Position numbers and translations under genes: made by a program. The notes under the pieces were generated by a model, which was given only the letters and a program-made list of their open reading frames with translations, was not told the origin of the DNA and did no database searches. Positions 1 through 3,069 of a DNA stretch of 5,421 bases are shown here, one piece after another (positions within the stretch are counted from its first letter, which is position 1; every line of letters begins with the position of its first letter). Where the stretch lies: assembly GCA_001799195.1 (NCBI GenBank), contig MGSU01000305.1:1-5421 (forward strand), in the 5' to 3' direction. Source of the DNA: Deltaproteobacteria bacterium RIFOXYA12_FULL_61_11. GTDB lineage: Bacteria > Bdellovibrionota_F > JAHFAK01 > YA12-FULL-61-11.

Positions 1-3000
1 CAGGTGCTGTTCACCAAGGAGCCGTCCGCGGTGGAGGTCGTCTCCGACCTCGACCCCGAGATCGCCTTCGCCTTCAAGTTCGCCAAGGCCATCACGCCCG
101 AGCAGCTCGACCGGCTACGCCGCAAGAAGTGGGTCGGGGACAAGGCCCACTTCCGCAAGCTCTACGAGACCGCGCCGCCCGAGGACGACCTCGATCGGTT
201 CTACCGCTTCGCCTACCTGGTGCGGTTCTCGTTCAACAAGCTTCGTCGCGGCACCATGCCGGACAAGAACGTGGGCGTCGAGGCGCGCTTCGTCGAGAAG
301 CTCGAGCGCTGGGCCCCGCGCCTCAAGGACGTCCGGGTACGCTGTGCCGACTACGAGAAGGTCATCGAGGAGTACGACGGCCCGGACACCTTCTTCTTCC
401 TCGACCCGCCCTACGCCGGCCACGACGCGGACTGTCGCGTGGGCGCCGGGCACAAGGACTGGGACGAGGCGCGCTTCGCCAAGGTGCTGCGCAAGATCCG
501 CGGCCGGTTCCTGTGCACCTACGGGCTGCGCGGGGACGCGGAGCTGTTCAAGGAGTTCCACGTCCGGCGCTGGCGGCACACCTCGGGCGTCGGCACCTCG
601 CAGGGCCAGGGGCTGCGCACGGGCGTCACGCTCGTCGCCACCAACTACGACCCGGACAAGGCGCGTCGCTTCCAGGTCTCGGTCTCGAAGACCATCTGGG
701 GCTCGCCCGCGGGCAAGAAGAAGCTCGCCGAGCGGCTGGTCGCGCTGCTGCCGGCCCACAAGACCTACGTCGAGCCCTTCGCCGGGAGCGGCGCCGTGCT
801 CTTCGCCAAGGACCCGGCCGAGACCGAGGTCATCAACGACGCCGACCCGGACATCGCTCAGGCCTACCGGATCATCAAGCGGCTCACGCGCAAGCAGCTT
901 GAGCGGCTGCAACGCATGTCCTGGACCGGCGACGAGGCCACGTTCAAGCGGCTCATCGACGCGAGCCCGACCGACGACGTCGGCTGGCTGCACCGCTTCT
1001 TGTACCTGACCCACTTCTCCTACGGGAAGATGCGGGGCAAGAGCTTCAGCCCTTCGACCCAGGGCATCGAGGCCCGGACCGGCGAGCGCATCGAGGCCTT
1101 CGCCCCGCGCCTGAAGAACGTCCGCATCTACGGCGGCGACTACGAGAAGGTCGTCCGCAAGTACGACGGGCCGGACACGGTCTTCTTCCTGGATCCTCCC
1201 TACGCCGGCTACAACGTGGACATCGGCGAGGGCGACTTCGACGAGGAGCGCTTCCTCGGCGTGCTCAAGTCGCTCGAGGGCAAGTTCCTGCTGACCTACG
1301 GGGTGCGCGGCAAGCTGCCCGCGCTTCTCGACAAAGCCGGCTTCCACATCAAGCGCATCCGCACCCCGCGCAGCATCGGCTCGATGCGCGGCGTGGGCGG
1401 TCCCTCGCTCCTGACCCAGCTCGTGGTTGCCAACTACGAGCTGACCGAGAAGGCCGACGCCGACGGCGAGCCGTTGATCGAGGACTGGGACGGCCAGCTC
1501 GAGCTCGACGACCGCCCGGGCGAGCCGTCGGTCGCCGACGAGGAGGAGGTCGAGAAGGCCCAGGCCTTCGGCACCTTTGGCGGCTCGCACCACTACGCCA
1601 AGCGGATCGTGCCGCTCATCCCGGAGCACAAGACCTACGCCGAGCCCTTCGCGGGCGCGGCCGCAGTGCTCTACGTCAAGGAACCCTCGGAGAAGGAGGT
1701 CATCGCCGACCTCGACGCCGACGTGGTGTTCCTGCACCGCTCCATCAAGGCGATGTCGCCCGAGCGGGTGGAGGAGCTGGCCCGGCGCTTCGAGTGGAAG
1801 TGCACCGACCAGAGCTTCCGCAAGGCCCGGGACATGGAGCCCAAGGATGAGGTCGAGCGGTTCTACAAGCTCGTCTTCGTCCGCACCCACGCCCGCGACT
1901 GCCGGCCCGACGGCACGCACCCGGCGCGTAACCACCTGGGCAGCACGACCAACCCCGAGAAGTACCTGCGCGCGGCCGAGCGGCTCAAGGACGTGACCGT
2001 CCTGCACCAGGACTACCGCAAGACCATCGACCAGCTCGACGGGCCGGACACCTTCTTCTTCCTCGACCCGCCCTATCCGGGTGAGTGGTACGACAAGGAC
2101 GCCGCCGTCGACCTGGGAGAGTTCGTCGAGGCGCTCGGCAAGATCAAGGGCCGCTTCATCGCGGTCCTGAACGACAGCCCAGAGAACGTCGCCGCCTTCA
2201 AGAAGCTCGGCCGCGTGTTCCGGCTCAAGGTCCACGAGGCCTCGGGCACGGGCGGCGCCAAGACCGCCTCGCGTCTGTTCTGCGCCAACTTCAAGGTCGC
2301 CAAGGCCGACGACCTCGAGGTGCTCGCCGAGCCCGTCGATCTCCTCGAGCCCGAGGAGACTGGCAAGGCCGCGTGGACCCGGGCGTTCATCAACGACCTG
2401 CCCGACAGCGCGTTCCTGCACCTCGAGCTCGGCGGCGAGAAGGACGAGGGCGGCAAGACCGTACCCCGCAGCCTGCGCCACTTCCCGGTGCGCGGCGCCG
2501 ACGGTGAACTCGATCTGCCGCACCTGCGCAACGCCATCGCCCGCATCCCGCAGGCGAAGATCCCGGGGCTCACCGCGGATGACCTGCGCGCGCTGCAAGA
2601 CGAGGCGCGGCGCCTGCTCACCGAAGCGATGAAGAAGGCCGGCGTGTTCGCCAAGTCGATCCCCCTCATCAAGGGCACGGACCCGGACGACGAGCGCTAC
2701 GTGCTCGGCGTCGTGCTCGAGCCCGAGGTGGTGGACGCGCAGGGCGACATCTACTCGGCCGAGGAGGTCCGCCAGGCCGCGCACCGCTTCATGGAGGAGT
2801 TCGGCGGGCTGGGGCTCATGCACCGCTTCCGGGTCAACGACCAGGTGAAGGTGCTGGAGAGCTACCTCGCGCCCGTCGACCTCACCCTGGGCGGGGCCAC
2901 CGTGCGCAAGGGGACCTGGCTGCTCGCGGTGCGGATCCTCTCCGACGAGCTGTGGGAGCAGGTCAAGGACGGCCAGCTCACCGGCTTCTCGATCGGCGGC

Positions 3001-3069
3001 TCCGCTCGAAGAGTTCCCGAGGGTGAGGCGTCGGCCGCGCCTGAAGACGGGCAACGGAGGGCCGCATGA
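1..3069 (+). CDS. Triple D12-class adenine methyltransferase fused to N-terminal part of XkdF-like prohead protease (5' partial)
   Basis: The frame is open from base 1, so the true start lies upstream; residues here count from the GTG at base 4. Three Dam-like N6-adenine methyltransferase modules follow each other. Module 1 (bases 1 to about 660) has DPPY at residues 134-137, and its motif I is cut off by the edge. Module 2 (about 685-1440) has motif I EPFAGSG at 257-263 and DPPY at 397-400. Module 3 (about 1564-2300) has EPFAGAA at 547-553 and DPPY at 688-691. Each ends in a similar strand (VATNY, VVANY, FCANF). Motif I precedes DPPY by about 140 residues, the order expected of alpha-type D12 enzymes, which transfer methyl from SAM to adenine N6. 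An acidic linker separates modules 2 and 3. Residues 790-875 form a helical segment of unknown role. From about 880 the protein resembles XkdF/S78 proteases, with a His in LMHR (H940) and GFSIGG near the end, but it stops before the EVSLVD strand. The stop overlaps the next start (ATGA). Family calls are confident; specificity and activity are inferred. Confidence 0.9.
382..413 (+). repeat. 32-base direct repeat, copy in methyltransferase module 1
   Basis: Bases 382-413 are identical to 2044-2075. They encode the [11 protein letters not shown] catalytic segment. A more diverged version is at 1171-1202 in module 2. The identity at wobble positions goes beyond what protein constraint requires, and suggests module duplication or gene conversion between modules 1 and 3. 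Confidence 0.75.
2044..2075 (+). repeat. 32-base direct repeat, copy in methyltransferase module 3
   Basis: This is identical to 382-413 and covers the same catalytic segment. The flanking bases diverge quickly (codons after DPPY read PGEW here and AGHD in module 1), so the identical block is confined to the catalytic core. Confidence 0.75.
3056..3069 (+). promoter_or_regulatory. Ribosome binding site and ATGA stop-start overlap
   Basis: GGAGGG at 3056-3061 lies 4 bases before the ATG at 3066. That ATG shares bases with the TGA (3067-3069) ending the upstream methyltransferase-protease gene. The site fixes the start of the downstream gene and suggests translational coupling: ribosomes finishing the fusion protein can reinitiate and make its partner in matched amounts. 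The spacing is slightly short. Confidence 0.7.

Follow-up and report, generated by a model that had tools for sequence, protein, structure and literature searches.

Dam-like methyltransferase modules fused to an XkdF-type prohead protease in a phage head operon: distribution and possible role as capsid cargo

Why would a phage tie three Dam-like DNA methyltransferase modules to a prohead protease in one protein? The question is raised by the window analysed here, a stretch of 5,421 nucleotides that makes up the entire contig C305 (MGSU01000305.1) of the Deltaproteobacteria bacterium RIFOXYA12_FULL_61_11 genome (4.64 Mb, 342 contigs). We addressed whether the fusion is real, how widely it occurs, what its domains are likely to do and how it relates to known systems.

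The fused gene and its head operon

All features of the window lie on the forward strand. The frame at 1-3069 is unbroken over 1022 codons, and its 5' end is lost at the contig edge. In this frame, Pfam found three stretches of PF02086 (MethyltransfD12; E = 1.8e-47) and, at residues 889-1004, PF14550 (Peptidase_S78_2, XkdF; E = 4.9e-32); DPPY occurs at residues 135, 398 and 689, or 134, 397 and 688 when counted from the GTG at nucleotide 4. The open frame, the Pfam matches and a complete homologue on contig C110 of the same genome define the gene as D12(alpha)-D12(beta)-D12(gamma)-accessory domain-S78_2 protease. The preliminary description, made from the letters of the window, had placed three Dam-like modules and an XkdF-type protease in a single frame; the uninterrupted frame, the Pfam matches and the recurrence of the arrangement elsewhere bear this out, as does the domain search extended to the full gene, in which the complete C110 copy gave three D12 modules plus the protease.

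Module 1 (alpha; 1-651, DPPY at 403-414), delimited by a custom HMM (1-217) and a tree, is without motifs X and I because the contig begins inside it. Module 2 (beta, the core module of the family; 682-1440, DPPY at 1192-1203) was placed by Pfam, the HMM (228-480) and PDB matches to Dam and DpnM, and module 3 (gamma; 1552-2295, DPPY at 2065-2076) by Pfam, the HMM (518-765) and the tree. The earlier statement that every DPPY stands in a full-length D12 context therefore holds for modules 2 and 3 but not for the 5'-cut module 1, which is complete in C110 and in loci L097 and L100. Next comes an accessory domain (2371-2628; LPDSAF...RSLRHFP...), for which nothing scored above the Pfam cut-off and which phmmer matched in 15 further loci; it is restricted to some homologues, and its position varies among head-region proteins. 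The XkdF/Peptidase_S78_2 protease domain (2656-3012) is the last in the gene.

The start of the following gene (3066-3938) overlaps the stop of the fused gene. This gene is scaffold-like, matching phrog_13975 and carrying WPLDLNR...DKAVSFHDV at its C-terminus, and its N-terminal motif was found 3' of the protease gene in 109 loci. It is followed by the major capsid protein gene (3935-4906; PF05065, E = 2e-12; phrog_1623) and a small head-region gene with no assigned function (4925-5308; phrog_13538). On a 9.4 Mb Myxococcota contig, the order is terminase, portal, MuF-like protein, D12-D12-protease, scaffold-like protein, capsid, neck and tail sheath. Judged from gene content and order, the fused gene of the window is the predicted head-maturation protease gene of a tailed prophage, within the late head operon.

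The C110 relative, a 1332-aa protein 70% identical to the window protein, has three D12 modules followed by the protease and ends in a scaffold-like part joined in frame; the gene order is portal, MuF-like protein, fusion and capsid. With this second instance, faulty assembly is excluded as the source of the three-module form. That the window is a short MAG contig with a 5'-cut gene would suit a misassembly or sequencing error that fused neighbouring genes, but independent contigs, isolate genomes and the 9.4 Mb chromosomal contig all show this fused order, which refutes an artefact and leaves it virtually no credence. The window contig and C110 differ in GC content (69% and 62%) and look, from their sequences, like two phages; their host assignment rests on binning, since the recognised content of both is all phage. 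No restriction gene was found beside the fusion on either contig, the recognised neighbours being portal, MuF, scaffold-like protein and capsid, and PADLOC matches on the fusion itself were to methyltransferase models and PD-Lambda-5_B.

A further contig of the genome, C189 (L201:10986-11321), ends 112 codons into a frame 3' of portal and MuF. Its GC content is close to that of the window, upstream of which it may be placed; no sequence overlap joins the two.

Distribution and architectures of the fusion

A protease-profile scan, biased toward the protease of the window, found 80 loci among viral contigs and 49 loci in a set of one genome per species. Architectures were called with HMMs built here over 165 protease frames, which were not deduplicated. 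The commonest was D12-protease (76 of 165), followed by protease without D12 or ligase (47) and D12-D12-protease (29, one of which, L118, resembles a single module split in two); ligase-protease and D12x3-protease were found in five frames each, D12-ligase-protease in two and D12x3-ligase-protease in one. In none of the 165 protease frames did a D12 or ligase domain lie C-terminal to the protease. One- to three-module D12-protease fusions thus amount to about 110 frames, distributed over Myxococcota prophages, MAGs and viral contigs, and three-module forms are rare, with six loci including the window. In a Pfam search of 195 genomes from the same phylum as a Myxococcus genome, which is free of the bias toward the window's protease, S78_2 was detected in 31; D12 shared the frame with S78_2 at 27 of the 30 Myxococcota loci fetched, and at one more once the full gene was read.

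The viral-contig, per-species and Myxococcota surveys rule out a unique architecture. The idea that the arrangement stands alone was therefore abandoned: one- and two-module fusions are common in Myxococcota prophages, and the three-module form itself is found at six loci. The genome survey that had been proposed for the same architecture showed it to be common, but a characterisation of it was not found in the open-licence literature, which yielded no description of a methyltransferase-prohead protease fusion or of such a protease as a carrier. The same frame and domain order in many independent loci, together with low dN/dS in the modules and the protease (below), exclude a chance origin of the fusion.

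Some Myxococcota genomes carry two S78_2 copies. Carriage in these genomes, sometimes in duplicate, would fit modules maintained for the lysogen, with the prophage marking the host chromosome or regulating expression and the protease as a passive partner. The gene, however, sits in the late head operon, which a lysogen normally keeps silent, and we consider this explanation improbable.

Among 50,697 phage records, no D12-protease fusion and no ligase-protease fusion was found when a single place had to cover 80% of the query. Proteins named 'DNA methyltransferase' at this place in phages phiPsa374 and Lactococcus 28201 were checked as candidate fusions and contain the protease and no D12. That of Pseudomonas phage phiPsa374 (L015:3923-4378) is a 151-aa protease alone, its name possibly inherited via phrog_1530.

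Methyltransferase modules and protease

In a tree of 115 modules, three orthologous groups (alpha, beta and gamma) were resolved, which keep a fixed order and all lie N-terminal to the protease. Beta is present in nearly all proteins, gamma lies 3' of beta or occurs alone (L099), and alpha is invariably first; a conserved short helix-like leader precedes the first module. Measured with the complete module 1 of L097, alpha is 50% identical to beta and 38% to gamma, and beta and gamma are 31% identical. The modules had been described as clearly diverged, which is true of module 3 (31-38% identity to the others) but not of modules 1 and 2, which are about 50% identical. Against 14 other D12 enzymes, a small outside sample, the protease-linked modules formed one clade (support 0.992), the pattern that duplication within the gene would produce; separate capture of each module is not favoured by this clade.

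The three stretches match the D12 class profile above the gathering score, and motif I and DPPY are intact in homologues, which places the modules in the D12 class of predicted adenine methyltransferases. In a structure model whose domain arrangement is unreliable (pLDDT 70, pTM 0.39), the best PDB matches were 7m6b and E. coli Dam, and the modules are predicted to fold like Dam. A candidate recognition hairpin differs among alpha, beta and gamma and is conserved inside each group; we take its position to correspond to the site-reading region of E. coli Dam. The earlier suggestion that the modules may recognise different sites is consistent with this group-specific hairpin in Dam's specificity region.

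DPPY is intact in 110 of the 115 modules; among the others, L100 beta has APPY and L031 gamma has YPPY, which shows that the catalytic motif of one module can change and the others keep theirs. Between the window and four relatives, dN/dS was 0.17-0.34 per D12 module and 0.11-0.23 for the protease, rough values owing to the simple NG86 method and high GC, and every module appears to be under purifying selection. The few natural motif losses would be expected if the modules were mainly structural, providing the procapsid with a spacer or a core that binds DNA and needing no catalysis; the intact DPPY of most modules and the purifying selection on all of them make this very unlikely.

For the protease, the PF14550 profile match, a His (2821-2823) and a Ser (2989-2991) invariant in 52 homologues as candidate catalytic residues, and the place in the head operon together point to a predicted protease. 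T4 gp21 was the clear top match of the protease model (pLDDT 79; Foldseek probability 0.99), with Z 6.3 over 107 residues and an rmsd of 4.3, where Z under 8 is weak; the next row had Z 3.8, and herpesvirus proteases were lower among the structural matches. XkdF has been called unrelated to the usual prohead peptidase superfamily (PMC7824862), as against T4 gp21 as the best match here. In a viral structure library, the matches of protease size included a 'Zeta toxin domain containing protein'.

A VDxAAN motif opens the gene 3' of the protease gene in 109 loci. No conserved internal start was found before the protease, a weak Shine-Dalgarno-like match being present in 9 of 88; a free protease made from such a start is therefore not indicated, and the protease is apparently produced within the fusion. 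WPxDL was considered as a common targeting peptide of scaffold C-termini and fusion N-termini. It is regular in scaffold C-termini, but only three matches were found in protease frames, two of them fused scaffold tails, and the idea was unsupported.

Related proteins carry further domains. In L010 (4656-8133), the protease bears one divergent D12, and a gamma D12 is inserted in the scaffold-like gene that follows, after VDxAAN. An ATP-dependent DNA ligase is present on giant proteins ending in the protease (L049, L057 and L092), and D12, ligase and protease are combined in L086 and L090. A 2175-aa frame of L196 (1617-8141, reverse strand) joins three D12 modules, an ATP-dependent DNA ligase and the S78_2 protease, a 1536-aa frame of L078 (1831-6438) joins an S-adenosylmethionine decarboxylase, two D12 modules and the protease, and L081 has a beta-lactamase-fold domain with ligase and protease.

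A possible route into the head and comparison with known systems

A prohead protease must enter the procapsid to work. We propose, at close to an even chance of being right, that the protease carries the methyltransferases into the head, so that several different sites of the phage DNA would be methylated and thereby protected from restriction. Three tandem Dam-like enzymes would ride into the procapsid on the protease, as the behaviour of prohead proteases suggests, and would there be freed by proteolysis or left attached. They might methylate the phage DNA at packaging or, more likely, after ejection with the DNA into the next host, shielding it from restriction as P1 DarB does, and three modules could widen the range of protected sites. 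This proposal is based on the domain content, the head-operon order, the conserved DPPY, the low dN/dS of the modules and the invariably C-terminal place of the protease relative to D12 and ligase. It also draws on the gamma module of L010, borne by a scaffold-like protein that is likewise expected inside the procapsid, on the ATP-dependent DNA ligase of related proteases, likewise DNA-acting, on the lack of a conserved internal start before the protease and on the single clade of the protease-linked modules. The head may be short of room for many copies of so large a protein (110-240 kDa), although about 45 DarB copies are predicted per P1 head (PMC12810830). No virion proteomics, methylome or cleavage data on these phages were found, nor were the modules linked to a restriction system of the host.

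In the main alternative, the modules would methylate replicated DNA late in infection, while it is still unpackaged in the cell, and their attachment to the protease would serve co-expression and not virion delivery. Free D12 methyltransferases abound in phages and are usually assigned this intracellular role, with which the retained catalytic motifs also agree. A covalent link is unneeded for co-expression, yet about 110 frames retain the fusion, no conserved internal start for a free protease was found, and one phage (L010) additionally has a module on its scaffold-like protein. We regard this alternative as a real but rather less probable one. Extending the proposal of delivery on the protease to the other cargo, we tentatively suggest that the head-maturation protease, and sometimes the scaffold, could be a general carrier on which N-terminally fused methyltransferases, ligases and other enzymes enter the procapsid and are injected with the genome, the three-methyltransferase form setting several marks at once.

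If delivery on the protease is true, antirestriction and DNA-repair enzymes would be delivered without a separate targeting signal, with the protease as the entry ticket to the head, and many large proteins annotated merely as XkdF or head maturation protease would be accounted for. The orthologous module groups with their fixed recognition hairpins might then be a natural set of methyltransferase specificities.

Canonical XkdF, as in Bacillus phage PBP180 and Lactococcus phage 28201, has the same protease domain (36-38% identical in alignment), with invariant His and Ser, and lies, like the fusion, between portal and capsid. It combines VDxAAN, protease and a coiled-coil-like tail in one protein of 350-370 aa, whereas at the fusion loci VDxAAN and the scaffold part mostly reside in a gene of their own downstream, and the protease has one to three D12 modules in front of it. 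Within PHROGs, phrog_13242 ('unknown function') corresponds to the one-module beta-protease form, with a full-length match (1-449 of 450), and this profile covers only that form, unlike the two- and three-module fusions. With the Dam family (E. coli Dam, DpnM and T4 Dam; PDB 7m6b, 2dpm, 2g1p, 4rtj and others), the modules have the fold and motifs in common, but those enzymes are solo proteins of about 270 aa, and the modules are fused and have different recognition hairpins. Against TIGR00571 (dam), a single beta module with protease (L113) scored 67.5 bits, below the cut-off of 114.85, which only the three-module sum exceeded.

Packaged multi-enzyme phage proteins are a described theme, represented by polyvalent proteins and MuF fusions (PMC5512222). 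Like the polyvalent proteins, the fusions combine several enzymatic domains, up to three D12 modules, ligase and protease in L196, in a late or virion gene context. P1 DarB and the polyvalent proteins also unite several domains in one phage protein, include a DNA methyltransferase, act on incoming DNA and are predicted to be carried in the head (PMC5512222). P1 provides a precedent for delivery: its Dar proteins are packaged and ejected along with the DNA, DarA is a substrate of the prohead protease (PMC12810830), and a reporter is directed to the capsid by 30 DarB residues (PMC9024508). The DarB methylase, however, is of another type, is fused to a helicase and has an N-terminal targeting signal, whereas the fusion has the protease as its putative carrier and no SF2 helicase, D12 and S78_2 being the sole Pfam matches above cut-off. 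In PMC5512222, a prohead protease appears only in a reference title, and the main text does not name one as a carrier. MuF-effector fusions similarly place an effector domain on a head morphogenesis protein (PMC5512222), but their carrier is MuF or the portal, and here it would be the maturation protease or the scaffold. As putative cargo, the D12-protease fusion would extend the known capsid-cargo theme of phage polyvalent proteins.
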